A stretch of 64,000 nt of DNA, taken from Paracoccus yibinensis (lineage in GTDB: Bacteria; Pseudomonadota; Alphaproteobacteria; Rhodobacterales; Rhodobacteraceae). Each line of letters begins with the position of its first letter. Positions within the stretch are counted from its first letter, which is position 1. The notes under the pieces were generated by a model that ran no database searches, was not told the origin of the DNA, and worked only from the letters and a program-made list of their open reading frames with translations. This document shows positions 2,058 through 60,583 of this stretch, piece by piece. Location of the stretch: the NCBI RefSeq assembly GCF_030846195.1, contig NZ_JAVCWH010000004.1:186001-250000 (forward strand), written 5' to 3'. Made by a program: the position numbers and the translations under genes.

Positions 2058-2060
2058 GCG

Positions 2061-2630: not shown

Positions 2631-2650
2631 TCCATCGAAGGACAATTCCG

Positions 2651-3127: not shown

Positions 3128-3876
3128 TGCGGGGTGCGGCGGCACGCACCGGGGACGGCCTGAAGGTCCGGGGGTTGCGCAAGTCCTATCGCAACCGGCC
3201 GGTGATCTGTGATGTTTCGGTCGATCTTGCGCGCGGAGAGGTCGTGGCCCTTCTGGGTCCGAACGGGTCTGGCAAGACCACCTGCTTTTATTGCATCGCG
3301 GGGCTTGTGCCGCCCGATGCGGGGCAGGTGCTGATCGACGGCCGCGACGCGACCCGCCTGCCGATGTTCCGCCGCGCGCGGATGGGCATCGGCTATCTGC
3401 CGCAGGAGATGTCGATTTTTCGCGGCCTGACCGTGGAACAGAACATCATGGCCGTCCTTGAGGTCGTCCACGAGGATCCCCGCCACCGCCGCGACCGGCT
3501 AGAGGAGTTGCTGGGCGATTTCTCCATCGAACACCTGCGCGCCGCACCCGCCCTGGCCCTTTCCGGGGGCGAGCGGCGCCGGGCCGAGATCGCGCGCTGC
3601 CTGGCGTCCGATCCCAGCTTCCTGCTGCTGGACGAACCCTTCGCGGGCGTCGATCCGATCGCCGTGGGCGAGATCCGGGGCCTGGTCCATGACCTGAAAT
3701 CGCGCGGCATCGGCGTGCTGATCACCGACCACAACGTGCGCGAGACGCTGGGCATCGTCGACCGCGCCTATATCCTGCACGATGGACATGTCCTGATGTC
3801 GGGTTCGACCGAGGAGATCGTGGCCGACCCCCGCGTCCGCGAGGTTTATCTGGGCGAGGGGTTCCGCATGGCCTGA
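3127..3876 (+). CDS. lptB: LPS export ABC transporter ATPase LptB
   Basis: This 249-residue cytoplasmic ATPase powers LPS extraction from the inner membrane with LptF and LptG. Walker A is GPNGSGKTT (about residue 42), the signature is [16 protein letters not shown], Walker B is [13 protein letters not shown] and the switch His is in [10 protein letters not shown]; all are intact. A charged extension of about 15 residues precedes the ABC fold. The ATG overlaps the lptA stop by one base (TGATG). It is the last gene before a 177-base gap and hpf. Confidence 0.95.
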
Positions 3877-3918
3877 GGGCCGCGCATGTGAATCTGCGTT
3901 CCCTCTGCAAGCGCCCCG

Positions 3919-3949
3919 TTGACAGACGGCTTTGGCTATCACCAGATTA
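3919..3949 (+). promoter_or_regulatory. Possible promoter upstream of hpf
   Basis: A perfect TTGACA occurs at 3919-3924 in the gap between lptB and hpf, with an AT-rich AGATTA/GATTAA about 19-20 bases later. The spacing is long, so it is a weak candidate, but it would let hpf-ptsN be transcribed apart from the lpt genes. Confidence 0.3.
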
Positions 3950-4053
3950 ACATATGCGGGACGCGCAGGAACCGTATCCCGCCACCCCCGTTTCCGCCCT
4001 GTGCCGGCAGACGGGCCGGCGCATTGGAAGACGGGCAACCGAGAGGAATGACG

Positions 4054-4629
4054 ATGCGCTATACCATCAGCGGAAAACAGATCGACATCGGCGATGCGCT
4101 TTCGACGCATGTGAAGACGGAACTGGGCGAAACGGTCGGCAAGTACTCGCAGCGCCCGACGGATGCGACCGTCACTTTTTCCAAGGATGCCCACCAGTTC
4201 ATGTGCGACGCCGTGGTGCACCTGTCCACCGGACTGAACGTGACGGCCCGGGGCGCCGCCACCGAGATCTATGCCGCATTCGAGGCTTGCCGCGAAAAGA
4301 TGGACAAGCAGCTTCGCCGCTACAAGCGCCGCCTGAAGGACCATCATAAGGACAGGTCCGAGCCGGTTGAATTCGGCCAGGCAGGCATGTATGTGCTGGC
4401 CGCTGACGAGGATGAATGGGAAGCGCAGGACAGCGGCCTGCAACCGATCATCATCGCGGAAATGGAAACCCGCGTCCCGACCCTGTCGGTGGGCGATGCG
4501 GTGATGCAGATGGAGTTGTCGGGGACGCCGCTTCTGGTGTTTCGGAATGAAAAACACGGGGGCGTCAATGTGGTCCATCGCCGCGAAGACGGCAATGTGG
4601 GCTGGATCGACCCGCGCGGCAACGGATAG
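4054..4629 (+). CDS. hpf: Ribosome hibernation promoting factor, long form
   Basis: A 191-residue long-form HPF is expected to dimerise 70S ribosomes into inactive 100S particles in stationary phase. The N-terminal S30AE domain (about residues 1-105) begins MRYTISGKQIDIGDAL and holds the basic helix REKMDKQLRRYKRRLKDHH. The C-terminal dimerisation domain ends with the conserved VNVVHRREDGNVGWIDPR. ATG 4054 is preferred over ATG 4048 because an AGAGGA ribosome site lies seven bases before it and would be too close to 4048. ptsN follows by 81 bases, the usual neighbour. Confidence 0.93.
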   Translation: MRYTISGKQIDIGDALSTHVKTELGETVGKYSQRPTDATVTFSKDAHQFMCDAVVHLSTGLNVTARGAATEIYAAFEACREKMDKQLRRYKRRLKDHHKDRSEPVEFGQAGMYVLAADEDEWEAQDSGLQPIIIAEMETRVPTLSVGDAVMQMELSGTPLLVFRNEKHGGVNVVHRREDGNVGWIDPRGNG

Positions 4630-4710
4630 GGCCGCGCGCGGCATCCCTGACTGAATCGACGCGCCCCTGCCGTTGCGGGGGCGCTTGAGCCTTGGGAAAG
4701 ACGCAAAGCC

Positions 4711-5172
4711 ATGCAGTTGACCGAAATCCTCAGACCGGGCGCCGTGCGGTCCCTGGGCCAGGTTACGTCGAAAAAGCGCCTGTTTCAGGAATTGGCCGAC
4801 CTGGCCCATGCCGAATACGGCCTGAACGCGACCGAGGTTCTGGATGCACTGCAGGAACGCGAAAGCCTGGGACCAACCGGCGTGGGGCAGGGCGTGGCAT
4901 TGCCGCACGCGCGCCTGCATGGGCTGGACCGCGTGGTCGGGCTGTTCGTGCGGCTGGACAAGCCGCTGGATTTCGACGCGGTGGATCGCCAGCCGGTTGA
5001 TCTGATCTTCTGCCTGCTGGCGCCCGAGACCAGCGGCGTCGATCACCTCAAGGCGCTTGCGCTGGTGTCCCGCACGCTGCGCGACACAGACCTGCGCGCG
5101 AAGCTGCGCGCCAACGACGATCCGGTGGCCCTGCACGCGGTTCTGGCCGCCCAGGGGGTCAAGGCCGCATAA
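4711..5172 (+). CDS. ptsN: Nitrogen PTS EIIA protein
   Basis: This 153-residue EIIA-Ntr belongs to the regulatory PTS branch with EI-Ntr and NPr, linking nitrogen and carbon state to potassium transport and other targets. The phosphorylated His is H66 in GVALPHARL, preceded by the family motif ERESLGPTGVGQG. Length is normal. In many proteobacteria hpf and ptsN follow rpoN; rpoN is not between lptB and hpf here, as is usual for Rhodobacterales. Confidence 0.93.
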   Translation: MQLTEILRPGAVRSLGQVTSKKRLFQELADLAHAEYGLNATEVLDALQERESLGPTGVGQGVALPHARLHGLDRVVGLFVRLDKPLDFDAVDRQPVDLIFCLLAPETSGVDHLKALALVSRTLRDTDLRAKLRANDDPVALHAVLAAQGVKAA

Positions 5173-5176
5173 GGCT

Positions 5177-5205
5177 TTGGATCGGGGCCGATTCGGTCCT
5201 ATACA
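5177..5205 (+). promoter_or_regulatory. Candidate sigma-70 promoter for the small gene at 5236
   Basis: TTGGAT (5177-5182) and TATACA (5200-5205) are separated by exactly 17 bases, just after the ptsN stop and 31 bases before the small gene. The fit to the consensus is good for this GC-rich genome. Confidence 0.45.
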
Positions 5206-5235
5206 GGGCCTCCACCTTTAAAACAGGAGGCGAAG

Positions 5236-5424
5236 ATGACCAAGCCGATCAGCGACAAGCCCGAGGACCGTGGAAACAGCCGTCTGCGCGCGTTCACCCG
5301 GCAGGAGCGCGAAGCAGGCACCCATCCGGCCATCGAGGTGCTGCGGACCCGCCCGCAGACGCGGAGCGAGGAGAACCGCAGAGCCATGGAATACACCCGA
5401 ATCGAACGCGGACGGGTGAGTTAA
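5236..5424 (+). CDS. Small basic hypothetical protein
   Basis: The 62-residue product is very hydrophilic, with about a quarter Arg/Lys and many Glu, no Cys, and no membrane segment or signal peptide. A strong AGGAGG ribosome site sits five bases before the ATG, and a good promoter-like pair lies upstream, so I judge it a real gene even though I do not recognise a family. It may be an intrinsically disordered nucleic-acid or ribosome-associated protein, but that is only a guess from composition. It lies between ptsN and the RNA ligase relic. Confidence 0.6.
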   Translation: MTKPISDKPEDRGNSRLRAFTRQEREAGTHPAIEVLRTRPQTRSEENRRAMEYTRIERGRVS

Positions 5425-5538
5425 GGGTTGAAGACCTGGGGCCGTTCGGCAAGGGCGGCCTTCTTGTTCAAGCCGGCCGTTGTATTGAGTCTCGGCTGCT
5501 GTTCTGGCTGTTCCAAGGACCCGTGCTATCGCTTCCCT

Positions 5539-6134
5539 TTGAGGAAATACGGTCGCACATTTCATCTGCCGATCTCACCCGGTGCCACCAGCGACGACAA
5601 GATCATGTCTTCGCTGGATGGACTGATGGTGGAAGACCTTGTCGTTACTGAAAAGATGGACGGTGAGACTACGACCATTCATGCTGGCGGCTCTCATGCG
5701 CGCAGTCCTGACATCCCGAGACTGGCTCAAGGGGTTTGCCGCAGGGATTTCACCCTATCTGGCAGAGGGCGAACGCATTGTTGGTGAGAACCTTTATGCA
5801 CGTCATTCGGTCGCCTATGATGCACTGCCTTCATATTTTCTTGGCTTCGCCTGGATCGTCGGCGATGAAGTGCAATCGTGGGATCTGATGCAGTCACGTT
5901 TCAAAGAGTTGCGCATCCAGCCTGTTCCGACGCTGTATCGAGGCCCTTACCGCCGATCTGACGCAGTCGCTTGATTGGGGGCGGCAGGAAGGTTTCGTAG
6001 CAAGGGTCGCTGACTCATTCCATGAAGCCGACATGCCGAGGCGAGTAGGGAAACATGTCCGCCAAGGACATGTTCGGTCTGAAACCCACTGGATGAAGGC
6101 TGAACTCATCCCAAATCGCTTGGCCACAGTTTAA
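5539..6134 (+). pseudogene. Broken RNA ligase gene (T4 RnlA/DRB0094-type superfamily)
   Basis: Three pieces in three frames together read as one RNA ligase. Frame 1 (from a TTG at 5539) has RKYGRTFHLPISPGATSDDK and the nucleotidyl motif VVTEKMDGETTTIHAGG, whose Lys would be the AMP-accepting residue. After a shift near 5705-5720 frame 2 gives GENLYARHSVAYDALPSYFLGF and the PVPTLYRG segment. After a second shift near 5945 frame 3 gives EGFVARVADSF and HWMKAELIPN to a TAA at 6132-6134. In intact members the first junction spans a few more residues, so a small deletion is likely. Base composition is clearly less GC-rich than its neighbours, suggesting transfer. Two shifts make a sequencing error unlikely. 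Confidence 0.8.
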
Positions 6135-6148
6135 CGACAGCAGCAAGC

Positions 6149-6213
6149 GTAGGGTGCGTGCTTGCACGCACCACATCAGGCAGGATCATGGTGCGTGCAA
6201 GCACGCACCCTAC
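6149..6213. repeat. 65-bp inverted repeat (REP-like palindrome)
   Basis: Two 25-base arms (6149-6173 and 6189-6213) are perfect reverse complements around a 15-base spacer. Each arm is itself partly palindromic (GGGTGCGTGC / GCACGCACC). It lies between the RNA ligase relic and the 3' end of ilvE, so it could end transcription from either side. Sequences beginning GTAGGGTGCGTGC are known as REP-type repeats in several bacteria; I see no RAYT transposase in this window. Confidence 0.75.
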
Positions 6214-6244
6214 GGGTGGGGGCCGCCCGGGGCAGCCCTTTCCC

Positions 6245-7114
6245 TTACGCCCGCACCAGCCGCTCGTAATCCTCGGCCACCTTTCGCGTCATCTGGCCGA
6301 CCTGGAAGTGCCAGTCGCCGATCTGCCCCACGGGCGTCACTTCGGCCGCCGTTCCCGTCAGGAAGCATTCCTGGAAATCCTCCAGCTCCTCGGGCTTGAT
6401 GCGGCGTTCGTGGACCGTCGTGCCGTTGTCGCGCAGCATCTGGATGATCGTCTGGCGGGTGATGCCGTTCAGGAAGCGGTCTGCCTGGGGGGTGTGGACC
6501 TCTCCGTCGCGGATGAAGAAGATGTTGGCGCCGGTCGCCTCGGCCACATAGCCTTCCCAGTCCATGAACAGCGCGTCGGAACAGCCCTTCGCCTCGGCCG
6601 CGTGCTTGGACATGGTGCAGATCATGTAAAGGCCGGCGGCCTTGGCTGCGGTGGGAATGGTTTCGGGCGACGGGCGCTTCCATTTCGCCACGTCCAGTTT
6701 CGCGCCCTGCCATTTGGCATCGCCGTAATAGCTGCCCCATTCCCAGACCGCGATGGCCATGCGGATCGGGTTGCGCGCGGCCGACACGCCCATGTCCGGG
6801 CCCGAACCGCGCCACATCACCGCGCGGACATAGGCGTTGGTCAGCCCGTTGGCCTTCAGCACCGCCTCTTTCGCGGCGTCGATTTCGTCCGCCGTATAGG
6901 GGGATTCCATGTCCAGCAGACGCGCCGATTCGATCAGGCGCAGCGAATGTTCGTGGCCTTTGAAGATCTTGCCGTCATAGCACCGCTCGCCCTCGAAGAC
7001 CGAACTTGCATAATGCAGCGCATGGGTCAGGATATGCACATTCGCTTGGCGCCAATCGACCAGTTCGCCGTCCATCCAGATCTTGCCGTCGCGATCGTCA
7101 TAGGCCGCCGTCAT
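6245..7114 (-). CDS. ilvE: Branched-chain amino acid aminotransferase
   Basis: This 289-residue class IV PLP enzyme carries out the last step of Leu, Ile and Val synthesis and the first of their breakdown. Visible features are the N-terminal KIWMDGELVDWRQANVH, the HALHYASSVFEGERCYDG active-site segment, the PLP Lys in the mid-part, and EATGANIFFI and LNGITRQTII near the phosphate-binding end. The frame continues far upstream, but the start at 7114 gives the family N-terminus. It is divergent from petP, with 153 bases between them containing face-to-face TTGAC elements. Confidence 0.93.
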   Translation of the reverse strand: MTAAYDDRDGKIWMDGELVDWRQANVHILTHALHYASSVFEGERCYDGKIFKGHEHSLRLIESARLLDMESPYTADEIDAAKEAVLKANGLTNAYVRAVMWRGSGPDMGVSAARNPIRMAIAVWEWGSYYGDAKWQGAKLDVAKWKRPSPETIPTAAKAAGLYMICTMSKHAAEAKGCSDALFMDWEGYVAEATGANIFFIRDGEVHTPQADRFLNGITRQTIIQMLRDNGTTVHERRIKPEELEDFQECFLTGTAAEVTPVGQIGDWHFQVGQMTRKVAEDYERLVRA

Positions 7115-7267
7115 CTTTCTCTCCAATCCCGCCGGGCTTTGCGATTCTTGCGCCAGCTTGCCCGGAACCAAACAGTTTGTTGCGCGAAGTGCTTGACGCC
7201 TAGCAATCGAATCTTGGAAAGTCAACAAGACTGCCCTATCAAGGCGGCGTTCGGGAAAGGGAAGGCC

Positions 7268-7780
7268 ATGGCCGAGACGATGCGCGTGCATACCCTGGGG
7301 GGCGAGGATCTGCTGTTCCTGACGGACGAGCAGATCCGGCGCGGGATCGAGGCGATGTTTTTCGCCTATCGTGCCTTCACCGCCGACCCGGACCTGATCC
7401 TGGCGGGAATGGACTATGGCCGGGCGCATCACCGTGCGCTGCATTTCATCCATCGTGATCCGGGCCTGACCGTCACCTCCCTGCTGGCGGTGCTGGGGGT
7501 GACGAAGCAATCGCTGAACCGCGTGCTGCGCACCCTGATCGAGGATGGCCTGGTCGAAAGCCGCGTCGGCCGCCGCGACCGGCGCGAACGCCACCTCCAT
7601 CTGACCGCCGAGGGCGCGGCCCTGGAACGCCGCCTGTCCGAGGCGCAGCGGGCGCGGATGCGCCAGGCCTATCGCGCGGCGGGACCGCAGGCGGTGGCGG
7701 GGTTTCGTCAGGTGCTGGAAGCGATGATGGACCCCGATACGCGGGCGCAGTATCAGTCGATGAAGGATCTGCCCCTATAA
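7268..7780 (+). CDS. petP: MarR-family regulator, PetP-like
   Basis: The 170-residue winged-helix protein has the MarR core at about residues 45-125, with the recognition region LLAVLGVTKQSLNRVLRTLIEDGLVESRVGRRDRRER. It is followed nine bases later by an OmpR-type response regulator. That pairing is the petP-petR operon described in Rhodobacter capsulatus, where both genes are needed for cytochrome bc1 expression. The bc1 genes petABC are not in this window. The start at ATG 7268 follows a purine-rich GGGAAAGGGAAGG stretch. The family call is firm; the name rests on the gene pair. Confidence 0.82.
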   Translation: MAETMRVHTLGGEDLLFLTDEQIRRGIEAMFFAYRAFTADPDLILAGMDYGRAHHRALHFIHRDPGLTVTSLLAVLGVTKQSLNRVLRTLIEDGLVESRVGRRDRRERHLHLTAEGAALERRLSEAQRARMRQAYRAAGPQAVAGFRQVLEAMMDPDTRAQYQSMKDLPL

Positions 7781-42995: not shown

Positions 42996-43079
42996 GGGCG
43001 ACGTGCTGCAAGGTGCGGCAGCGGACTGTAACTCCGCCGGGGAGACCCATGCCTGGTTCGATTCCAGGGTCGCCCACCA
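42996..43079 (+). tRNA. tyrT: tRNA-Tyr (GUA)
   Basis: Acceptor GGGCGAC (42996-43002) pairs with GTCGCCC (43069-43075), the anticodon stem GCGGA / TCCGC encloses CTGTAAC with anticodon GTA at 43028-43030, and the T arm is CCTGG-TTCGATT-CCAGG. A long variable arm marks it as class II, as expected for bacterial tRNA-Tyr. CCA is encoded at 43077-43079. The next genes on the other strand are accessory. Confidence 0.97.
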
Positions 43080-43121
43080 CTTCCCCTGGTAATTCATTTC
43101 ACGACCTGCCCAGCCTGCGGG

Positions 43122-43730
43122 TCAGGATCGAAGGCTGTCCAAAGGGATGGTCTTGCCGAAGCCTTCCTTCTTGGGGAACATCTGCCTGACATCGGCGTCC
43201 GAGGGTGACTTATCGGCCAGGGCCTTGCGCGCCTCGAAGATCGCGATTTCCTTCTTGATCGCCAGCACTCGGACCAAGATGCGGGGAATCTTCACCGCTT
43301 CCAGCGTGGCGACCACGGTAAACAGCAGCGCCAGCGATTGCAGGCCCCGCCGCGCCGCGTCGGGAATCTCGGTTGGGGCATAGGGCAGCCGCCAGCCGAT
43401 ATCGGGGACGACCGCAATCACCATCAGCAGCGCCACGACAACCGCGACAAGGCCCAGGATGGAAAACAGGGTATGGACAGCGCGCGTCAATTCCTGCGCC
43501 AGTTCATCGATCTTCATGACCGAACGCCCCGCCGACGACAGGCTGCCGATCACCAGGGAAACCGTCGGAAGGATGCTGGCCGACACCAGCCCCAGAAAGG
43601 TCACGAGCATCCGCGACGGATCGCCGATCAGAAGCGCCGGCGGCAGGATTGCGCCGGCTGCCAGGCCTGCGGTCAGTGCAACAACTCTTGGCCCTCGAAG
43701 CGGCAATCTATCTTCCCGGCAGCGGCCCAT
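43122..43730 (-). CDS. Four-helix membrane protein, possible RexB-like effector
   Basis: The 202-residue protein has four hydrophobic segments at about 16-35, 42-63, 87-109 and 129-150, then a charged cytoplasmic tail of 50 residues. It begins at ATG 43730, inside the end of the upstream soluble gene (overlap about 58 bases), so the two are expressed together. I do not recognise a named family from sequence. Pairing with a RexA-like gene, four helices and cassette position next to tRNA-Tyr suggest an ion-channel effector like RexB (144 residues, four helices). That is inference. Confidence 0.6.
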   Translation of the reverse strand: MGRCREDRLPLRGPRVVALTAGLAAGAILPPALLIGDPSRMLVTFLGLVSASILPTVSLVIGSLSSAGRSVMKIDELAQELTRAVHTLFSILGLVAVVVALLMVIAVVPDIGWRLPYAPTEIPDAARRGLQSLALLFTVVATLEAVKIPRILVRVLAIKKEIAIFEARKALADKSPSDADVRQMFPKKEGFGKTIPLDSLRS

Positions 43731-44677
43731 TCCCTCAGGGCCTCGACGATCCGAAGCATAGCATCGGTCGGATCAAGAAGCGATCCTTCCGTTGCGATGT
43801 CCTTCACCACCGAGAGCTTGACCATGCCGCCCTGTTCCCGTCCGTCGCCATGCAGGCCCAGATCGGCGGGATCGAGGTTCCGCAGCGCCTCCTCGACCGC
43901 CGCCCTGGGAATGCGGACCTTGTGGCGCCGGTCCTTGATGAAGACCTTCAGCAGCCCTTCGACCCGGCCTCCCTCTGGCACCTCGGCCTCGAGCCGGGCG
44001 AGCGCATCGTCCTGCCAGCCCATCATGCGCAGCATGTCGAAGACCGTCGCCCCTTCGTCGCGGGCCTCGCCCGCAAGGCGGGTGAACAGATCCCCGCACT
44101 GCGGGCTGCGATACCGCGGGCGGGCGGACAGGGTCAGGTCGCTGAACTCGGTAAGCCCCTTCTCCCCGGACGCCAGGAACCTTGCCAGAAGGATGATGCG
44201 TTCTTCCCCGCCCAGTTCGCCTGCCTGCCGAAGCAGGGCCGTAAGATAGCGTTCCAGCATGGCCGCCTTGACCGCCGTGCTTTCGATCAGGCCGACATGG
44301 TTCTGGTTGACCGCGAAATACAGCACCCCTTTGACAACCCGCGCGCCCCGCCCGATATCGACGTTCTGGACCAGGAATTCGTCTGTATCGTCGTCCAGCG
44401 ACTGCAACACCGCCTGGATATCCGCCCCGGCCTTGACATGGATGATCTGGCCGCAAAAGACCGGCCCGTCCCAGGTGGGGGGCGAGGATACCTTGTTCAG
44501 GACGACATGGCTGCCATCCCCGTCCAGGTCGATCGCCCTCAGCCGCGCGTTCTCTCCGATCAGGTGATTCTCGGCCCGGCGGCGCAGGACATCGACCAGC
44601 GTTGCCTTCAGGTCCATTCCCCGCAACGCGCCATCCGCCCTGGCTTCCCGGTATTGAATGGTCGCCCGTTTCAGCAA
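43673..44677 (-). CDS. RexA-like soluble protein (putative phage-exclusion sensor)
   Basis: The 334-residue protein starts at TTG 44677 with AGGAG seven bases ahead. No membrane segment is present. Its order of motifs resembles lambda RexA (279 residues): I..SL.DD near residues 87-97, LYFAVNQNHVGLIES (119-133) against the RexA segment FLFVEGDTIGFART, and FDMLRMMG with LKVFIKDRRHKVRIP (213-257) against FGDILKVLG and LDIVIKPKFKRDI. The match is by eye and weak per residue, but collinear. It would sense infection and open the membrane partner encoded downstream. A similar unnamed family is the alternative. Confidence 0.55.
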   Translation of the reverse strand: MLKRATIQYREARADGALRGMDLKATLVDVLRRRAENHLIGENARLRAIDLDGDGSHVVLNKVSSPPTWDGPVFCGQIIHVKAGADIQAVLQSLDDDTDEFLVQNVDIGRGARVVKGVLYFAVNQNHVGLIESTAVKAAMLERYLTALLRQAGELGGEERIILLARFLASGEKGLTEFSDLTLSARPRYRSPQCGDLFTRLAGEARDEGATVFDMLRMMGWQDDALARLEAEVPEGGRVEGLLKVFIKDRRHKVRIPRAAVEEALRNLDPADLGLHGDGREQGGMVKLSVVKDIATEGSLLDPTDAMLRIVEALREWAAAGKIDCRFEGQELLH

Positions 44678-44839
44678 TGCACTGCTCCTGGTTGTTCGAA
44701 GGACAGTATTGCACGTCGAGAAAGTGAACGAAACAAGAACATTTGCGAAGGGTGATCACTTTGTCACTCGTGCCGGATGCCAGGTGATACCTGGAAGGTC
44801 CGGCCCGGCCGTCCAGGCCGCCCGCCACCTGGAGAACGC

Positions 44840-44962
44840 ATGAAGCCCCCAGAAAAGCCCCATGTCCTGATCGCCTATCCCTTGCGCCCCCGTGTCATGG
44901 AGATGCTGGAGGCCTGCAATAGCCTGCACCGTCTTGACCAGGCCGCACCGCGATGGTGGTGA
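44840..44962 (+). pseudogene. N-terminal fragment of a 2-hydroxyacid dehydrogenase
   Basis: The first 30 codons, MKPPEKPHVLIAYPLRPRV and MEMLEACNSLHRLDQA, read as the start of a D-isomer-specific 2-hydroxyacid dehydrogenase (hydroxypyruvate reductase type, normally about 310 residues). The frame stops after 40 codons and no catalytic or NAD-binding part follows. A ribosome site GGAG precedes it. The following 245 bases to the amidohydrolase contain no gene and look like scar. Confidence 0.6.
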
Positions 44963-45207
44963 AACGGGCAGGTCGCGGTCGAGGCGTAGCCTGCCCGCGA
45001 TGAAGCTGGTCGAATGCGACACCTCGTCCGTTCGGGCGATTGGGCCGCAAGGGGATGTTCCCACGTCGATTGCGCGCAAGCGCGCGGGCCCGGATCTCCC
45101 GGATCGATTGTTTGGATTACTTCATTGATTTCTTTGAATAATGAATTTGCGGAAACAAACCCCTGCTCCCTATGCTGAACAAGGCAAACAGGATGAGATC
45201 AAGGGTC

Positions 45208-46518
45208 ATGCGGACTGCTGAACTTGAGCCACGTTTGGGACCTGCCGACAGACAAGGGGCTTTGGTGCTGGGTGGTGGCCAGATCGTCCGCGACGATGGC
45301 AGCGTCGTTCGGAACGATATCCTGATCGAAGGTAACGGACGCATCGCGGCGATCGGTCCCGACCTGCCGCTGCCGCCCGACGCAAACCGCTGGGACATGG
45401 CGGGAACGCTGATTTCGGCGGGTTTTGTGGACATGCACCAGCATCTGGACAAGACCGGGGTGCTGCGCTTCACGCCGAACCCGTCGGGCACATTGCAAGG
45501 GGCACGGGAAGCCTTTGCGAAATATGCCCGGACGGCCGGACCGGAAGACATCACCCGCCGCGCGACCCGGACGATGGGGCGCTGCCTGTCGCGGGGGACC
45601 ACCGCGATCCGCAGCCATGTCAACGTGGACAAGGACGCCCGCTTCAACGGGATCGAGGCCCTGGCACGGCTGCGCGACGAATGGGCCGACCGGCTGACGC
45701 TGCAACTGGTGGCCTTCATGACCCCGCATCCGGGGCAGGATTTCGACTGTCTGACCGAAAATATCGACGCGGCGCTGGCCATCGGGGATGTCGTCGGCGG
45801 AACGCCCGCGGTCAGCGAGGATCCGGCGCGCTATATCGACATCCTGTTCGCTGCGGCGGCGCGGGCGGACAAGCCGGTCGATCTGCATCTGGACGAACAT
45901 CTGGATCCCGCGCGGGTCCATTTCGATGCCGCGCTGGATTGCGTGGAACGCTATGGGATGCAGGGCAGGACGGTGTTCAGCCACATCTCGGTCCTCAGCG
46001 CGATGCCGCGCGCGGATGCAAGGCGCATCATGGACCGCATGATCGAACTGGATGTCGGCGCGGTCACGCTGCCTGCGGCGAACCTTTATCTGCAAGCCCG
46101 CGATCACGAGACGCTGCCGCCGCGCGGATTGACGCGGGTGGCCGAACTGATGCGCGAGGGCGTGGCGGTCGCCACCGCCTCGGACAATATCCAGGATCCC
46201 TTCGTGCCGACAGGATCGGGCGACATGCTGGAAATCGCCCGGTGGACCCTGCTGGCAGGCCACCTGATGGCGGACGAACTGGCCGACGCTTATCGGATGA
46301 TCACCTCGGTTCCCGCGCGGCTGATGGGGCTGGGTGGCGATCACGGGATCAAGGTCGGCGCCTGGGCCGACCTGGTGCTAACCGACTGTATCGACACGGA
46401 AACCCTGGTGGCCGGGGGCGCGGACCGGATGCGGGTCCTGTCGCGGGGCCGGCTGGTTTCCGAAACCTCGGCCCGGCTGGCCGATCCAGAACCCGCCCGG
46501 GTGGCCTGCGCGCCGTAA
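45208..46518 (+). CDS. Amidohydrolase, cytosine deaminase-like
   Basis: The 436-residue metal-dependent hydrolase has GFVDMHQHLDKTGVL (metal HxH), THQH-type second site CVERYGMQGRTVFSHISVLS, VDLHLDEHLD and the metal Asp in ATASDNIQDPF. It resembles cytosine deaminase/isoguanine deaminase in layout. ATG 45208 has AAGGG upstream; an ATG at 45172 lacks one. Its neighbours suggest nucleobase use, but most of the operon downstream is broken, so it may be losing its purpose. Confidence 0.83.
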   Translation: MRTAELEPRLGPADRQGALVLGGGQIVRDDGSVVRNDILIEGNGRIAAIGPDLPLPPDANRWDMAGTLISAGFVDMHQHLDKTGVLRFTPNPSGTLQGAREAFAKYARTAGPEDITRRATRTMGRCLSRGTTAIRSHVNVDKDARFNGIEALARLRDEWADRLTLQLVAFMTPHPGQDFDCLTENIDAALAIGDVVGGTPAVSEDPARYIDILFAAAARADKPVDLHLDEHLDPARVHFDAALDCVERYGMQGRTVFSHISVLSAMPRADARRIMDRMIELDVGAVTLPAANLYLQARDHETLPPRGLTRVAELMREGVAVATASDNIQDPFVPTGSGDMLEIARWTLLAGHLMADELADAYRMITSVPARLMGLGGDHGIKVGAWADLVLTDCIDTETLVAGGADRMRVLSRGRLVSETSARLADPEPARVACAP

Positions 46519-46572: not shown

Positions 46573-47560
46573 ATGGAAATGCGTGTATTTCGAAATACGG
46601 CGCTGAAAAGAGCCAGGCCTTTGGCCCTTGCCGGGATGCTTTCGGCAGGCGCGCCTGGGCCGAGGAATTCAAGATGGGGCTTCTGGTTCCCGGCAGCGTA
46701 TCCGAGGAAGGCTGGAACCGCATCGGCTACAACGCGCTGAAGGGCGTCGAGGAACAGCTTGGCGCGCAGATCAGCTATATCGAGCTTCAGCAGAACCCGG
46801 CCTCGTTCGAGAAGGCCTTCTATGACTATGCCAGCCAAGGCTATCAGGTGATCCTGGGCCACGGGTTCGAGTTCCAGGACGCGGCGCTGAGCGTGGCCGA
46901 GGATTACCCGGACACGATCTTCCTGATCTCGTCCAGCGACATCCACGAGGGCAATGTGATCGGGCTGAACACCGACGCCAGCCAGCCGTTCTACCTGATG
47001 GGCTTCGTCGCGGCGAAGATGGGCAAGAAGGCCGGGCTTGTCGGCGGCATGGAAATCCCGCCGATCCAGCAGGCTTTCGCGGGCTTCAAGGCGGGCGCCC
47101 GCAGCGTCGATCCCGATTTCCCGATCAGCGAGGCCTATATCGGCAACTTCACCGACACCACCGCCGCCAAGGAAGCCGCGCTCAGCATGATCGCGCAAGG
47201 GGCGGATTTCGTGGTGCCGAATGCCTCGGGCGCCACGGTGGGCGGATACCAGGCGATCGCGGAAGCGGGTCCTGACGTCAAGACCTTCAGCATCTTCAGC
47301 GACTTCACCCAAGTCGCGCCCCAAAACATCCTGGGCCTTTACGTGGCGGATTATGCGCAGGGCGTGGTGGATGTCGTTAGCGCGATCCGGGAAGGCACCA
47401 GCCGGAATCGAATGTCGTCTTCGGGCTGAAGGATCCGAACGTCATCAAGTTCAGCTTTCGCGAAGACGGTCCCGCGCCCGTTCCCGCCGAGCTGCAGGCC
47501 GAGGTGACCGAGGTCGCGGCCCGTATCGCCTCGGGCGAGATCCAGACCTATAGCCAGTAA
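46573..47560 (+). pseudogene. Frameshifted BMP-family substrate-binding protein
   Basis: A signal peptide in frame 1 (MEMRVFRNTALKRARPLALA) is followed, after a shift near 46650, by the mature protein in frame 0: EEFKMGLLVPGSVSEEGWN, YPDTIFLISSSDIHEGNVIGLN, LVGGMEIPPIQQAFAGFKAG and FSDFTQVAPQNILG. A second shift near 47405 moves to frame 2, with VVFGLKDPNVIKFSFRED and the natural end IQTYSQ at 47560. Intact, it would bind nucleosides or purines in the periplasm for an ABC importer. Two shifts show the gene is dead. Confidence 0.85.
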
Positions 47561-47616: not shown

Positions 47617-48701
47617 ATGAGCATGACACAGATCGAACGGGACGGAGAAGGCCTCGCCTCGACGCCCGCGTCCCGGCGGATCGGCCGGGCCTTGAGGGCC
47701 GCGGCCCTGGCCATCGCGCGGCCTGCCGCCGCCGTTGCCTCGGCGCTTGTCTTCGGCGCGGCGCTGCTGGCGCTGAGCGGGTTCAACGGTCGGATGTCTT
47801 CACCGTGATGATCCTGGGCGTCTTCCAGGACTTCCGTTCGGTGACCGAGATCCTGCTGAAGGCCGTGCCCCTGATCCTGATCGGCGCCGGGCTTTGCGTG
47901 GCCTTTCGCTGCTCGATGTGGAACATCGGGGCCGAAGGACAGCTTTATGTCGGTGCCATCGCCGCGACCCTGGTGGGCGTCAGCTTCGAAGGCCTGACAC
48001 CCTGGCTTTATGTCCCGGGGGTCCTGATCGCGGGTGCGGTCGGCGGCGCCTTCTGGGCCGGGATTGCAGGCTGGCTGAAGGTGCGCTTCCACGCCAGCGA
48101 GATCGTAACCACGATCATGCTGAACCTGCCGGTCGATTCCGGGCGGGTGATCCTGCGGGGAGAGGATGTTACAGGCATGGATCAGGCCCGGATCAACACA
48201 CGCGGTTTTGCCCATGTCCCCGAGGACCGGCACAAGATGGGCATCCTTCTGCCCCTGACCCTGGCCGAGAATGCCATCCTGCACACCCACGACCGGCCCC
48301 CCTTTGCCGCCCGCGGGATGCTGCAACGCCGCCGGATCGCCCGGCACACGCGCGACCTGATCGCGCGCTTCCGCATCAAGACCCCGGACGAGACGCAGGC
48401 GATCGGCAACCTGTCGGGGGGAAACCAGCAGAAGCTGGTCGCGGCCCGCGAATTGGCGCGCGACCCCGACTTCATCCTGGTCAGCCAGTTGACCCGCGGC
48501 ATCGACATCGGCGCGATCGAGTTCATTCTCCAGGAAATGCTCAGGCAGCGCGACAAGGGCAGGGCGATCCTGCTGATCTCGACCGAGTTCGAGGAACTGT
48601 TCGCCGTTTGCGACCGCATCCTGATGATGGCGGGCAAGAAGCAACCGCCCGGCGCAGCCGGGGCGGTGATGCACCATCCCGCCGGGGCGATGTCGGCTTG
48701 A
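47617..48701 (+). pseudogene. Chimera of an ABC permease N-terminal half and an ABC ATPase C-terminal half
   Basis: It begins as a permease at ATG 47617 (basic start, then a first helix), shifts frame near 47790, and continues from about 47805 with VPLILIGAGLCVAFRCSMWN and NIGAEGQLYVGAIAATLVG, helices of a BMP-system permease ending in FHASEIVTTIMLN. At about 48125 it joins without a stop to the second half of a sugar-type dual ABC ATPase, with FAHVPEDRHKMGI, the signature NLSGGNQQKLVAARELA and Walker B-like DFILVSQLTRGIDIGA. There is no Walker A, and half of the permease is missing. The open part alone, 47805-48701, encodes 298 residues. Confidence 0.85.
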
Positions 48702-48750: not shown

Positions 48751-49686
48751 ATGAACATCACCCTGCGCCAGGTCCGGGCTTTCATCGCGGTCGCCAATCT
48801 GGGGCGCTTCAACGTGGCGGCCAACAGCCTTGGTCTGACCCAGTCCGCCGTCAGCATCCTGATCCGCGAACTGGAAACGGAAATGGGCGTTCGGCTGTTC
48901 GACCGCCATACCCGCATGGCCAGCCTGACCAGCACGGGCCAGGAGTTCCTGCCCCAGGCCCGCAAGGTTCTGGAGGATCTGGACCGGGCCACGCGGGGCA
49001 TCCGCGACCGCGCCACGCTGAAATGCGGGCAGGTGACGGTCGCGGCGGCCATCGTGCTGGCGGCCACCATCGTGCCGCCGCTTCTGGCGCAATTCCTGGA
49101 ACAGCACCCCGGCATGACCGTGAAGCTGCACGACATGGCCGAGGAACGGATCCGCGTCGCCCTGAAGCGCAACGAGGTGGACATCGCCATCGGAACCCTG
49201 CTGGACGATGATCCAGAGATCATGACCACCCCCGTCGCCACCGACCGCCTGATGGTCACATGCCGCGCGGATCATTCCTTCGCGCAGCGCGAACAGGTCC
49301 GGTGGGAGGAATTGGCCGCAGAACGGTTGATCGTCCTGGCGCCCGAAAACCCCCTGCGCGACATCGTCGAACGCACCATGATCCGCGTCGCGCCGAATTT
49401 CCGCCCCAGCTACGAGGTGGGCTTTTCATCGACGGCGATCAGCATGATCTCGGCCGGGATGGGGATTTCCGTCCTGCCCGAGAATTCGCAGCAACTGGCC
49501 CCGGCCGTCCAGGTCCGCAAGGTCGAACTGGTAGAGCCGCGGGTCACGCGCGTGATTGCCGTCCTTCAGCACCGCTATCGCAGCCTGTCCCCCGCCGCGG
49601 AACGGCTGCGCGAGATGATCCTGGCGAATGCCGCGGCCATCCGTGCCTTCCACGCCGACGCCACGCCGCCACCCGCGCTTGCCTGA
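48751..49686 (+). CDS. LysR-family regulator
   Basis: The 311-residue protein has a LysR helix-turn-helix (RQVRAFIAVANLGRFNVAANSLGLTQSAVSILIRELETEMGVRLFDR) and a periplasmic-binding-like ligand domain with the ISAGMGISVLPE segment. It probably controlled the catabolic genes nearby, many of which are broken. Its stop and that of mobA lie in the two arms of a small palindrome. Confidence 0.9.
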   Translation: MNITLRQVRAFIAVANLGRFNVAANSLGLTQSAVSILIRELETEMGVRLFDRHTRMASLTSTGQEFLPQARKVLEDLDRATRGIRDRATLKCGQVTVAAAIVLAATIVPPLLAQFLEQHPGMTVKLHDMAEERIRVALKRNEVDIAIGTLLDDDPEIMTTPVATDRLMVTCRADHSFAQREQVRWEELAAERLIVLAPENPLRDIVERTMIRVAPNFRPSYEVGFSSTAISMISAGMGISVLPENSQQLAPAVQVRKVELVEPRVTRVIAVLQHRYRSLSPAAERLREMILANAAAIRAFHADATPPPALA

Positions 49687-52109: not shown

Positions 52110-52607
52110 TTGAGACGATTCGACTATCACGAACCCACAACGCTGGAGGAGGCCTCCCGGTTGATGACAACCTTGGGGGAAGGCGCTTTTCTGCTGGCCG
52201 GGGGCACCGACCTGTTCGTCGAAATCCGCGAACGGCTGCGCAGCATGTCGCACCTGATCAACATCAAGCGCGTGCCGGGTCTGGACCGCATCGACTGGTC
52301 GGAAGCCGAGGGGCTGCGCTTTGGCGCCCTTGTCACCGCCGGGCAACTTGAGGCTTCGCCCCATGTCGCCGCGCGCTATCCGAACCTGCAGACGGCGATG
52401 CGGGCCCTGGCCTCGATCCAGGTGCGCAACCGCGCCACGGTGATCGGCAATATATGCCGGGCCTCGCCTTCGGCGGATTCGATCCCGCCGCTGATCGCCG
52501 ACGGGGCCTCATCGGAATGCCCTGGGGCTGACAAAGCCCAGATCGCGATGCGGGTCGGTGCCGGCCTGTTCTGCTGCACAGTCCGGGCTTCGGAGGTGAT
52601 TGTTTAA
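52110..52607 (+). pseudogene. Truncated FAD-binding subunit of a xanthine dehydrogenase-type enzyme
   Basis: The first 132 residues are a normal CoxM/XdhB FAD domain: MRRFDYHEPTTLEEA, LLAGGTDLFVEIRERL, and IQVRNRATVIGNICRASPSADSIPPLIADGA. After about 52508 the frame leaves the family (SSECPGADKAQI...) and ends at 165 residues instead of about 280-290. The 2Fe-2S and molybdenum subunits do not follow. This is a truncation, probably by deletion or an insertion scar. Confidence 0.82.
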
Positions 52608-52738
52608 AGGTTTCGGGATTTGTTGCCCTGTGGTCCCAGCGGCATAAGGTGGATTTTGGGCTTCGGGCATTCAATGATATACGTGCGTTAGATTGAAAAA
52701 CATGGCGGCCATGAAGCCCAAGCACCTGTGCCGGGACG
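52508..52738. other. Scar of unassigned sequence between two truncated genes
   Basis: About 230 bases between the broken FAD subunit and the altered end of the RidA gene have no family assignment, are less GC-rich than the surroundings (AATGATATACGTGCGTTAGATTG), and fit no gene on either strand. They look like foreign or IS-derived filler. Confidence 0.45.
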
Positions 52739-53080
52739 ACGTGCTATTGCGATCATCTCGACCCTCGTGCCGGGTCGCGCAAGCGTCACGCCGCAGGTTG
52801 CTCGTGCCGGAGGATGCTTGCGATCAATCCAGGCGTCCCAGACTGCGTTCATGCCCGGAAAATCCGCCATGTCGCTGAGCCACACCTGAACGGATGCGAT
52901 GTCGGCCTTGCTGCCGCCCAGTTCCGCCATGACGGCGTCGATGCCTGTCAGGACCTCGGCGGTTTGAACCGCCATATCGCCTTCCAGCGTCGTCTGGATC
53001 TGGCCGGCCAGAAAAACGATATCGCCGACTGCAACGGCCTCGCTCATGCGCGGTCCGGGATTGAGGCGATCCAGCATCAT
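52688..53080 (-). CDS. RidA-family protein with altered C-terminus
   Basis: The first 113 residues match RidA/YjgF: LNPGPRMSEAVAVGDIVFLAGQI, VLTGIDAVMAELGG, MADFPGMNAVWDAWI and the Arg-containing PARATCGVTLARPGTRVEMIAIA. The natural end would come about there; the frame then continues with about 17 unrelated residues (PGTGAWASWPPCFSI). RidA hydrolyses reactive enamines. The catalytic Arg is retained, so it may still work. It overlaps the stop of the M19 fragment (ATGA). Confidence 0.75.
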   Translation of the reverse strand: MMLDRLNPGPRMSEAVAVGDIVFLAGQIQTTLEGDMAVQTAEVLTGIDAVMAELGGSKADIASVQVWLSDMADFPGMNAVWDAWIDRKHPPARATCGVTLARPGTRVEMIAIARRPGTGAWASWPPCFSI

Positions 53081-53202
53081 GGAATTACTTTCGGATCAGT
53101 CGTTGTCATTGCTGCTTGCCCCGGCACCCCGCGCATCTGCCGGAAGATGCCTTCCGACCAGTTCGCATATTGCAGCCCGTCGACCAGCGGCGCGCGGATC
53201 AT
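53077..53202 (-). pseudogene. M19 dipeptidase gene reduced to its first codons
   Basis: The frame begins MIRAPLVDGLQYANWSEGIF, the start of an M19 (membrane/renal) dipeptidase-like enzyme, and after about 24 residues jumps to an unrelated tail ending TTTDPKVIP at the RidA start. The catalytic zinc-binding body of about 300 residues is missing, so an internal deletion joined the gene start to the 3' end of the region. It remains coupled to genes on both sides by ATGA overlaps. Confidence 0.65.
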
Positions 53203-53661
53203 TCCGGCGCCCCCGCCGCGACATAGGCTGTTTTCACGGTGGTGTAGAATTCGGCGGCATAACGGCCCTGTTCGCGCGGGCCGAAGCTGGACGTCGCGGT
53301 CGCCGAAGGGGACGTGGTAATCGGTGCCCGCCGTGGGCAGGTTCACCATCACGCAGCCCGCCCGCATGTTGGCGCGGAGATGGCTGGCGCGCGCAAGGCT
53401 GCGGGTCATGATGCCCGCGTCAGCCCGAAGGCGTTGTCATTGGCGATGGCCAGCGCCTCGTCATAACTGCCGGCGCGGATGAAGCAGGTGATCGGCGCGA
53501 ACATTTCCTCGCGGTTGATGCGCATGTCGTTGCGGGTGCGGGCAAAGACGGCGGGTGCCATGCAAGGACCCGGCGTTTTCCGCTCCAGCCGCTCGCCCCT
53601 GCAAAGCAGTTCGGCCCCTTCCTCCTGGCCGATGCAGAGAGCTTGGGCCGCCCCGAGCTTC
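53199..53661 (-). pseudogene. C-terminal remnant of an aldehyde dehydrogenase
   Basis: A piece in one frame (MRINREEMFAPITCFIRAGS, YDEALAIANDNAFGLT) shifts near 53410 to SLARASHLRANMRAGCVMVN and LPTAGTDYHVPFG, and shifts again near 53310 to FGPREQGRYAAEFYTTVKTA, ending at a TGA overlapping the dipeptidase ATG. The catalytic Cys and Glu part (N-terminal 300 residues) is absent. It resembles the ketoglutaric semialdehyde dehydrogenase branch, as does the intact gene at 62703. Confidence 0.8.
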
Positions 53662-56634: not shown

Positions 56635-58383
56635 ATGAAGAAACGCAATGTCGATCCGATCACGCTGTCGGTGGTGCGCGGCGTGCTGGAAACGGCCCAG
56701 CGAGAGATGACGCTGACCCTGGAACAGACGGCGCGCAGTTCGGTCTTCAACCTGGCGCATGATTATTCCACGGCGCTGTTCAACCACACGCCCGAGATGA
56801 TCCTGCAAGGCCAGGACATTCCCATCCACCTTGGATCGCTGATCCCGGCGATGAAATCGGTCGCCCGCTACTTTGACGGCGACATCCACGAAGGCGACCT
56901 GATTTTGCACAACGATCCGGCCTATGGCGGGTCGCACATCATCGACACCTGCATGTACATGCCGGTCTTCTATCAGGGGGAACTGGTCTTCTGGACCGTC
57001 TGCAAGGGCCACCTGACCGATATCGGCGGCCCGGTCCCCGCCGGATACAACCCCAACGCCAAGGAGATCTTTGCCGAAGGGCTGCGCATCCCGCCCGTCA
57101 AGATCTGGGACCGGGGCAAGCCGCGCAAGGATGTCATGAACCTGCTGCTGACCAACATGCGGGCGCGTCGCGACCAGGAAGGTGACTTCAACGCGCTGAT
57201 CGGGGCCTGCCAGGTCGGCGCGCGGGCCTTGATCCGCATGATGGACAAATACGGCAGGCAGGTCGTGCAGGACTGTATCGCCGAACTGCTGGACATGGCC
57301 GAGGCGCATATGCGCAAGCTGATCGCCGGGGTGCCCGACGGCACCTATTCCGGCACCGCCATCCTGGAGGACGCGGGCCACGGCTTTGGCGATTTCGAGA
57401 TCACCGCCACCGTGACCATCGCGGGCGACAACTGCCATATCGCCGTCAACTCTCCGCCGCAGGTGCCCTATTTCATCAACAGTTATGAAGGCAACAGCCA
57501 TTCCGGGGTCTATCTGGGGTTGATGATGTTCGCCCAGCTTCCGCCCCCCTACAACGAGGGGCTGTATCGCTGCGTCACGACCGACATGGGGCCAAAGGGG
57601 ACGCTGTGCAACGCGCAGTCGCCCGCGCCGCACATGAACTGCACCACCACGCCGATGGAGACGCTGACGGATGCCGTGCGGCTGGCCTTCGAACAGGCGG
57701 CGCCCGCCAAGGTTTCGGCCAGCTGGGGCCATGCCAACGGCTGCAACATCGCCGGCTGGGACACCCGCCATGACGAGGAGTACGTGACCATGGTGCTGGC
57801 CTCGATCATCTCGGGGGCGGGGGCCACGGCGACGCAGGACGGCTGGCACGCCTGCGGGCCGGAATGCTGCTTCGGGGCGCTGACCAGCGGCGATATCGAG
57901 ATGCTGGAACACAGCTATCCCATCATCATCCACCGCTATTCCCTGATGGAGGATTCGGGCGGCGCCGGCAGGCATCGCGGCGGGTCGGGCACCTGCTGGG
58001 AGGTCGAGCCGCTGGACAGCCCCATGACGCTGATCACCTTTGGCGAAGGCCGCCGCATCCCCGCCATGGGCGCGGCGGGCGCGCGGTCCGAGATGGTGGA
58101 AACCAAGGTCGGCCGGCTGGAGGTCACGCGGGGCGGCGAAACCCGGATCATCACCGAAAACGTGATCGAGACCATCCGGCCCGGCGAACGCGCCGCCAAC
58201 AAGAACCCCGGCGGCGGCGGTTACGGCAACCCCTTTGAACGCGACATCGCCCGCGTTCTCCAGGATGTCCGCGACGGCCTTGTCAGCGTCGAGGGCGCGC
58301 GCCGCGACTATGGCGTGGTGATCGCAGACCCCGCATCCCTGACCGTGGACGAAGCCGAAACCGCGCGCCTGCGCGCCGCCTGA
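56635..58383 (+). CDS. hyuB: Hydantoinase B / oxoprolinase subunit
   Basis: The 582-residue protein is the B subunit of an ATP-dependent N-methylhydantoinase or 5-oxoprolinase. Clear blocks are NDPAYGGSHIIDTCMYMPVF, GHLTDIGGPVPAGYNP, NSPPQVPYFINSYEGNSHSG and SGGAGRHRGGSGT near the C-terminus. The hydantoinase A subunit follows 77 bases later. Together they hydrolyse cyclic amides with ATP; the exact substrate is uncertain. It is divergent from the AraC gene with 273 bases between, which hold no gene. Confidence 0.9.
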   Translation: MKKRNVDPITLSVVRGVLETAQREMTLTLEQTARSSVFNLAHDYSTALFNHTPEMILQGQDIPIHLGSLIPAMKSVARYFDGDIHEGDLILHNDPAYGGSHIIDTCMYMPVFYQGELVFWTVCKGHLTDIGGPVPAGYNPNAKEIFAEGLRIPPVKIWDRGKPRKDVMNLLLTNMRARRDQEGDFNALIGACQVGARALIRMMDKYGRQVVQDCIAELLDMAEAHMRKLIAGVPDGTYSGTAILEDAGHGFGDFEITATVTIAGDNCHIAVNSPPQVPYFINSYEGNSHSGVYLGLMMFAQLPPPYNEGLYRCVTTDMGPKGTLCNAQSPAPHMNCTTTPMETLTDAVRLAFEQAAPAKVSASWGHANGCNIAGWDTRHDEEYVTMVLASIISGAGATATQDGWHACGPECCFGALTSGDIEMLEHSYPIIIHRYSLMEDSGGAGRHRGGSGTCWEVEPLDSPMTLITFGEGRRIPAMGAAGARSEMVETKVGRLEVTRGGETRIITENVIETIRPGERAANKNPGGGGYGNPFERDIARVLQDVRDGLVSVEGARRDYGVVIADPASLTVDEAETARLRAA

Positions 58384-58459
58384 TCCCCGTTTCCCCATGA
58401 CGCCGGGGCCTGCACGGCCTGCCGCCTGTGCCCCCGGTTTCCCGCAAAGGACGCATCCC

Positions 58460-60583
58460 ATGCAGAACCAGTATCGCCTTGGCATCGACGCCGGCGGCAC
58501 CTTCACCGACTTCATCCTGGCCGACCGCAAGGGCGAGGTGCGCATCTTCAAGGCGCTGTCCACCCCCAACCGCCCGACCGAGGCCATCCGAAACGGCCTG
58601 AAGATCATCGAGGAGGAAACCGGCCTTTCGCCCGACACCATCGTGTCGAACGCGGATCTGTGCATCAATGGCACCACCGTCGGGCTGAACGCGCTGATCA
58701 CCCATACCGGCGCGAAAACCGGCCTGATCGCGACGAAGGGCCACGAGGACAGCATCGAGATCCGCCTGGGCCACAAGGAGGACGGCTATCGCTATGATCC
58801 CGAATACCCGCCCGCGACCATGCTGGTGCCGCGCTATCTGCGCCGCGGCGTGTCCGAACGGGTGCTGTCGAACGGCACCGTCCACACGCCCCTGGACGAA
58901 GACGATGTGCGCGAGGCCTGCTGCCATTTCCTGCGCGAAGGGGTGGAATCGGTCGCCATCTCCTTTGTCTGGTCGGTGCTGCATCCCGACCACGAGCTTC
59001 GCGCCGCCCAGATCGTGCGCGAGATGATGCCCGACGCGCGCCTGACCATCGGCAGCCAGCTTTACCCGCAGGTGCGCGAATACACCCGCACCTCGACGGC
59101 AATCGTGAACGCCTATCTGGCGCCGATCCTGCAACGCTATGTCCGGGCCGTGGACGGATACTTCCAGCGGCTCGGCGCGCGCCAGCCGGTGCGCTACTTC
59201 CAGTCGAACGGCGGGCTGGCCCTGGGCAAAGTCGTGGCCGACCAGTCGGTCTATGCGATCAATTCCGGCCCCGCATCCGCGCCCCAGGCCGCGATGTGGC
59301 TGGGCGAGCCCTGGGGGATGCGCGACATCATCACCGTGGACATGGGCGGCACGTCCTTCGACATCACCCTGACCCGCGACGGACGCGCCAATGTGTCGAA
59401 GAACATCGACTTCCTGCGTTATCGCATCGGCATCCCGATGATCCAGGTGGAAACCCTGGGCGCGGGCGGCGGCTCGATCGGCTGGATCGACGGCATGGGC
59501 CTGTTGCAGATGGGGCCGCAATCGGCTGGATCCGAACCGGGACCTGCCTGCTATGGCAAGGGCGGCGAAAAGCCCACCACCACCGATGCGAACCTGGTGT
59601 TGGGCTATCTGAACCCCGAAGGCCTGGTCGGCGGCCGCCTGCCGCTGGACGTGGAGAAGGCGCGCAGGGCCATCCGCACCCACCTGGCCGATCCGCTGGG
59701 CATCAGCGTCGAAAAGGCCGCCCATGGCATGTTCACCATCGTCAACAACACCATGGTGAACGCCATCCGCCGCGTGTCGGTCGAACGCGGCTATGACCCA
59801 CGCGACTTCGTGCTGAACTGCGCGGGCGGCGCGACGGGCGCGCATATCACCGCGCTGGCGCGCGAGATGGGCATCCGCAAGGTGCTGGTGTCGAAGCTGG
59901 CCTCGGGGCTGTGCGCCTTCGGGCAGATCCTGTCGGACGTGAAATACAACTACATGGCCCCCGCCCCCGTGCGGCTGGAGGGCGCCGAGGCAGCGTCGCG
60001 GCTGGACCGGCTGTTCACGGGGCTGGAGGCCCGGGGCCGCGAGGATCTGGCCCTGGACGGCTTTGCCGATGGCAAGATCAGCATCCGCCGCAGCCTGGAC
60101 ATGCGCTATGTCGGGCAGGTGCATGAATGCACCGTGGACGTGGACCCGTTCGAGATCACCGAATCCGCGCTGGACCGCCTGAAGGCCGCCTTCCACGCCC
60201 GGCACGAGGAGCTTTACACCTATTCCGAGCCGCAAAGCGCGGTCGAGGTCGTCAATGTCGAAAGCGCCATCACCGGCGCCGTGGACCGGCCCGGCCGCAC
60301 CACCCTGGCGCGGGGCAAGGGCGCCCATTCCGCGCTGCGCGGCACGCGCGAGATGATCTTCAACGCCGAAGGGATCCCGCACGAGACGCCGGTCTATGAC
60401 GGGGCCCTGCTGGGCGCCGGGGACCGCATCTCCGGCCCCGCCGTGATCCAGGAGGTGACGACGACCATCGTCATCGAACCCGGCTGGCTGGCGGAACTGC
60501 ACGAATCCGGCGTCTATGTCCTGACCCTGGGCGTGCAGGCCGGGATGGCGCAGCGCGCGGAACTGGCCGCCGAGGAGGCCTGA
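58460..60583 (+). CDS. hyuA: Hydantoinase A / oxoprolinase subunit
   Basis: The 707-residue ATP-binding A subunit has the phosphate-1 motif RLGIDAGGTFTDFILADRKGE, GLIATKGHEDSIEIRLG, FQSNGGLALGKVVADQSVYAINSGPASAP (actin-like ATPase fold), TVDMGGTSFDITL (phosphate-2) and GSIGWIDGMGLLQMGPQSAGSEPGPACYG. It pairs with the B subunit just upstream. ATG 58460 is chosen because it gives the typical N-terminus; the frame is open slightly upstream. Confidence 0.93.
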   Translation: MQNQYRLGIDAGGTFTDFILADRKGEVRIFKALSTPNRPTEAIRNGLKIIEEETGLSPDTIVSNADLCINGTTVGLNALITHTGAKTGLIATKGHEDSIEIRLGHKEDGYRYDPEYPPATMLVPRYLRRGVSERVLSNGTVHTPLDEDDVREACCHFLREGVESVAISFVWSVLHPDHELRAAQIVREMMPDARLTIGSQLYPQVREYTRTSTAIVNAYLAPILQRYVRAVDGYFQRLGARQPVRYFQSNGGLALGKVVADQSVYAINSGPASAPQAAMWLGEPWGMRDIITVDMGGTSFDITLTRDGRANVSKNIDFLRYRIGIPMIQVETLGAGGGSIGWIDGMGLLQMGPQSAGSEPGPACYGKGGEKPTTTDANLVLGYLNPEGLVGGRLPLDVEKARRAIRTHLADPLGISVEKAAHGMFTIVNNTMVNAIRRVSVERGYDPRDFVLNCAGGATGAHITALAREMGIRKVLVSKLASGLCAFGQILSDVKYNYMAPAPVRLEGAEAASRLDRLFTGLEARGREDLALDGFADGKISIRRSLDMRYVGQVHECTVDVDPFEITESALDRLKAAFHARHEELYTYSEPQSAVEVVNVESAITGAVDRPGRTTLARGKGAHSALRGTREMIFNAEGIPHETPVYDGALLGAGDRISGPAVIQEVTTTIVIEPGWLAELHESGVYVLTLGVQAGMAQRAELAAEEA

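Follow-up and report, generated by a model that had tools for sequence, protein, structure and literature searches.

A single frame with two transporter domains

The 64,000-nt stretch of Paracoccus yibinensis DNA analyzed here (the window) contains an open reading frame in which part of a permease is followed directly by part of an ATPase, and the question is whether this frame is a real fusion gene, a remnant or an error of assembly. The frame, its two parts and the point at which they meet are as follows.

47805..48701, + strand: fused open reading frame, a putative chimeric pseudogene; 298 aa, GTG start (ORF list, Pfam, translation)
47617..48125, + strand: N-terminal part of permease 1, with a 1-nt deletion near 47790; the fused frame runs from GTG 47805
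48126..48701, + strand: C-terminal part of the second ABC domain of the ATPase (PF00005, translations); LSGGNQQK kept, Walker A absent
48125..48126, no strand: putative deletion junction, where comparison with relatives indicates a loss of about 2,461-2,474 nt

An earlier note, made from the sequence alone, had described a frame of 298 codons open from 47805, in which the N-terminal part of a permease runs into the C-terminal ABC part of an ATPase. The ORF list contains this frame and the Pfam domains agree with its description, with BPD_transp_2 matching residues 14-109 (profile positions 3-94 of 269) and ABC_tran residues 100-225 (profile positions 27-131 of 137). The note had also put the fusion point at about 48125, right after an MLN; the translation places the junction at 48125|48126, with the codons ATG-CTG-AAC directly 5' of it and residue 107 as the last before it. 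LSGGNQQK, in the ATPase part, is presumably the signature motif.

The GC profile by codon position is normal and coding-like in the fused frame, because both parents are genes. Open reading frames of at least 298 aa number 60 in this window of 66% GC, and the profile is coding-like in 18 of the 60. This filter is crude, as real genes (the amidohydrolase and XdhC among them) also failed it; the number of chance frames is therefore at most the other 42. Moreover, a frame of 552 codons lies antisense to the fused one. With so many long frames, and one of 552 codons on the opposite strand, the length of an open frame says little about whether it is a gene here. The warning that the locus could be misannotated was justified, given two Pfam domains in one long frame: two Pfam matches within a frame do not prove a genuine fusion gene, and in a genome rich in GC a long frame that carries domains may be a chimeric remnant.

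Comparison with intact operons of relatives

The earlier note had proposed alignment to the intact genes of relatives as a way to define the ends of the deletion, and six related loci (L029, L030, L031, L032, L047 and L128) do define them: the two halves lie 2,461-2,474 nt apart at the positions matching the junction. By blastn, permease homology stops at 48125 in five relatives and at 48124 in L047, and ATPase homology restarts directly, at 48126, in two (L128 and L030) and later, at 48185-48208, in the other four. For the late-restarting relatives, the ATPase end was fixed by ungapped placement of the first 100 bases 3' of the junction, of which 50-64 are identical there (50-75 across all six). 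The missing length comes to 2,462 nt against L128 and L032, 2,463 nt against L030 and L029, 2,461 nt against L031, and 2,474 nt against L047, the weakest placement.

The gene order was read gene by gene in L032 and L128 alone; in the other relatives the separation of the two parent genes, joined here at one point, was established by position. L032 encodes an amidohydrolase (638-1948), a BMP protein (2015-3004), permease 1 (3038-4159), permease 2 (4170-5102), the ATPase (5089-6642) and a LysR regulator (6697-7617). L128 keeps the same order from BMP to LysR, with a different gene, not the amidohydrolase, upstream. From this order, the deletion would have taken permease 1 from its second half to its end, permease 2 in full, and some 314 ATPase codons, Walker A included. 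In the resulting frame the MLN codons of permease 1 are followed directly by the LPVDSG segment from the C-terminal domain of the ATPase, with both parts in their native frames, for which the chance is 1 in 3.

No flush repeat is found at the ends, which share 0-1 bp at the break in the six relatives. Within 60 bp of both ends no exact direct repeat exceeds 6-10 bp, depending on the relative, and the longest is never in register; in L032, for instance, a 7-mer ends at the permease break and recurs 26 nt into the ATPase part. This bears on the possibility that 2.46 kb was dropped by misassembly from an operon that is intact in the cell, to which we give very little chance. The assembly (4.33 Mb) is in 64 contigs, the window being in contig C44, which leaves some room for such an error, but with 0-1 bp shared at the break and the 6-10 bp repeats off register there is no repeat to collapse, and a collapse is unlikely. 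The deletion thus appears from the alignments to be really present in the cell, and it presumably occurred as one event.

In the intact ATPases of L032 and L128, GENGAGKS, which we take to be a canonical Walker A, lies in the N-terminal domain, and the C-terminal domain carries GVSGNGQTE and FILVSQLTRG, which we assume to be a non-canonical Walker A and a Walker B without its Glu, respectively. Both GENGAGKS and GVSGNGQTE fall in the stretch deleted from the window. Degeneration of the Walker B in the window was considered as a sign of damage and rejected: its residues, FILVSQLTRG, are the same in the intact L032 and L128 ATPases, which also have GVSGNGQTE, and neither segment is therefore damage.

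In gene content and order, the ancestral operon resembles the BMP/PnrA-type ABC importers, which combine a Bmp protein (PF02608), two BPD_transp_2 permeases (PF02653) and a two-domain ABC ATPase, and the domains of both fusion halves are of these types. The copy in the window differs from such importers in having no permease 2 and in lacking much of permease 1 and most of the ATPase. The nearest NCBIfam models are NF047927-NF047930 (putative B6 transporter); the L032 proteins score below their curated cut-offs, so we assign no substrate to the importer.

Distribution of the fusion

The earlier note had reasoned that conserved homologues with the same fusion would speak against a deletion remnant. 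None was found in the genus, family-draw or 79-locus searches. Among 125 genomes of the genus, the DNA query spanning the junction was matched over its full length in one, the genome itself, and in 0 of the 124 others; in G123 it was matched as two pieces, 2,462 nt apart. Similarly, a 100-aa junction query had a full-length match in 1 of 394 family-draw genomes, again the genome itself, and in 0 of the 393 others. Candidates were scored per genome, at most 6 in the genus search and at most 12 in the family draw.

In 79 related loci, no HSP had at least 50 aa on both sides of the junction. Thirteen HSPs in 12 loci extended at least 20 aa beyond both sides, and we take these as over-extensions in ordinary genes. 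Where both pieces lie on the plus strand (67 loci), the ATPase precedes the permease in 62 and the permease precedes the ATPase in 5, with 2,432-2,485 nt between them. Among the matches listed (61 genomes), some ATPase rows pass the junction, e.g. residues 44-288 in G026, with an open frame of 539 aa; the open frames of these rows have the normal length of an ATPase.

A plasmid search returned 211 records. The best 20 of the 211 all show 60-80% identity, and among these 20, five Ensifer rows (H2-H5 and H11) name the whole gene set. In those five the match spans about 6.7 kb for 4.1-4.2 kb of query, so no fusion is visible there. The junction 21-mer had 0 matches in viral contigs, and a literature search found no report of this fusion in the titles and abstract openings of the papers listed.

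Other lesions in the operon and its surroundings

The genes around the fused frame are as follows.

45172..46518, + strand: amidohydrolase, cytosine-deaminase-like; 448 aa, open over its whole aligned length (PF07969/PF01979)
46573..47560, + strand: remnant of the BMP (PnrA-like) substrate-binding protein gene (PF02608 on 46674-47426; alignments to relatives)
48751..49686, + strand: LysR-family regulator; 311 aa, uninterrupted (PF03466/PF00126)
52110..52508, + strand: N-terminal part of a xanthine-dehydrogenase-type FAD subunit (PF00941; XdhB-type NCBIfam models below cut-off)

The amidohydrolase is 78.9% identical to that of L032 over 421 residues and scores below the cut-off of the cytosine deaminase NCBIfam models; it lies 5' of the BMP gene in the window and in L032, and not in L128. 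The BMP gene has two 1-nt frameshifts, one at about 46650, in the poorly conserved signal-peptide region, and one near 47397. In alignments to five relatives (L032, L128, L030, L031 and L131), single bases are missing relative to all five near 47397 and, in permease 1, near 47790. Permease 1 natively starts at ATG 47617, and the base missing near 47790 puts that start in a different frame from the fused ORF. The ATPase part also lacks about 69 nt, lost in frame, near 48623|48624, where the window reads DRIL-MMAG and L128 has 23 residues in between; this loss was placed from translations, since DNA aligners spread the gap and gave no placement. CTG-type repeats flank this loss. The frameshift upstream of GTG 47805 would thus remove the native permease start, and the loss of about 69 nt would trim the end of the ATPase. 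The earlier picture of a fusion by deletion stands, but it had missed the loss of permease 2, the frameshifts and this second small deletion.

All three small frameshifts are 1-nt deletions, a common type of sequencing error, which would suit an error of assembly or sequencing; against this, the lesions are concentrated in the genes for transport and xanthine dehydrogenase, and the second ATPase loss and the truncated FAD subunit gene adjoin. The clustering is evident from the uninterrupted frames of LysR, the MobA-like protein, XdhC and GntR, to which the amidohydrolase can be added. Homology of the FAD subunit to L129, L131, L031 and L128 stops at 52508-52514 (blastn).

Judged from these comparisons, the fused frame is very probably a chimeric pseudogene that a deletion created in a BMP-type ABC import operon undergoing decay. 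The case is one of ordinary genome decay, and the locus illustrates cleanly how an accessory operon in decay can lose DNA by a deletion that has no flush repeat at its ends. A study on Rickettsia describes pseudogenes in which indels and stops break genes into short ORFs that are annotated as separate genes (PMC2374718); the fragments described there derive from one gene, whereas in the window two genes are joined by a deletion.

Of the 125 genus genomes, five have the operon's LysR gene at E values up to 1e-30, its own genome among them, and the gene occurs together with the operon in G115, G139, G018 and G123. This limited distribution indicates that the block is accessory.

Could the product work?

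An importer of this type requires an intact substrate-binding protein, two complete BPD_transp_2 permeases and a two-domain ATPase with Walker A, signature and Walker B. The BMP domain is present with two 1-nt frameshifts in its gene, all that is left of the permeases is one stretch covering profile positions 3-94 of 269, and the N-terminal ATPase domain and the Walker A of the C-terminal domain were in the deleted stretch. Any product would combine the start of a membrane domain with an ABC fragment that lacks Walker A. With no partner permease and with the binding-protein gene frameshifted, it should not transport. The earlier view that no usable transporter is left is therefore sound, Walker A being absent, permease 2 gone and the BMP gene frameshifted.

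Copies of the lost pieces elsewhere in the genome are distant (best 40-41% identity for permease 2 and at most 48% for the full ATPase). The closest related sets of two permeases and an ATPase are at C44:292093-296349 and C33:485071-488512, and they may make this operon dispensable. Their presence would also give a target to a functional new fusion protein, e.g. a membrane-anchored ABC fragment acting as a regulator or blocker of another ABC importer in the same cell. That the frame survives two deletions, that its codon-position GC is normal and that relaxed selection leaves no significant sign are in favor of such a protein, but a frameshift destroys the native start, the partner genes are broken or gone, Walker A is missing, and the searched sets hold no homologue, so that we consider the chance of a function very remote. 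A young fusion gene under selection, translated from GTG 47805 as a membrane-anchored, ATP-binding-deficient decoy against another such importer, is similarly hard to credit.

A branch test, which counts changes unique to one lineage, gave 15 nonsynonymous and 18 synonymous changes in the broken genes of the window versus 98 and 152 in relatives (odds ratio 1.29, p = 0.57). For the two fused halves alone, the counts were 7/5 versus 42/61 (odds ratio 2.03, p = 0.36). Both ratios, from few sites, lean to relaxation and neither is significant. The recomputed pool of intact genes gave 85/86 versus 359/341 (p = 0.73); the MobA-like row was left out of this pool because its two taxa leave changes unpolarized. 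The lack of a significant amino-acid excess means either that the decay is recent or that the test is too weak, and it would also fit a retained function. What speaks against the pseudogene reading is that both deletions preserved the frame, that the window lineage carries no clear sign of relaxed selection and that codon-position GC is normal, the last being expected from the parents. Nevertheless, we infer that no selection acts for the fused product and retain the reading as a deletion-derived pseudogene.

Further observations in the window

The tRNA-Tyr gene lies at 42996-43079. One contig of G114 matches 43000-44743 at 81%, a second matches short pieces of 44817-45088, and little more is matched until 52725; the region 42996-45088 is possibly the edge of the accessory block.

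The FAD subunit gene, at 52110-52607, is truncated at about 52508. Full-length matches in the genome to the L128 molybdenum subunit reach at best 31% identity, with pieces of up to 35%. Farther along, the DNA matching 52725-53131 and that matching 53131-53638 are separated by about 4.93 kb in G114 and G118, and 53131 is thus probably a further deletion junction. The minus-strand part beyond 53131 resembles, by eye only, the end of an aldehyde dehydrogenase. A RidA-type (Endoribonuclease L-PSP) frame of 130 aa lies between the broken genes on the minus strand (52688-53080). Hydantoinase B and A type genes at 56635-60583 are uninterrupted, and the B subunit exceeds the NCBIfam cut-off for caprolactamase subunit beta (1112.3 versus 1000 bits).
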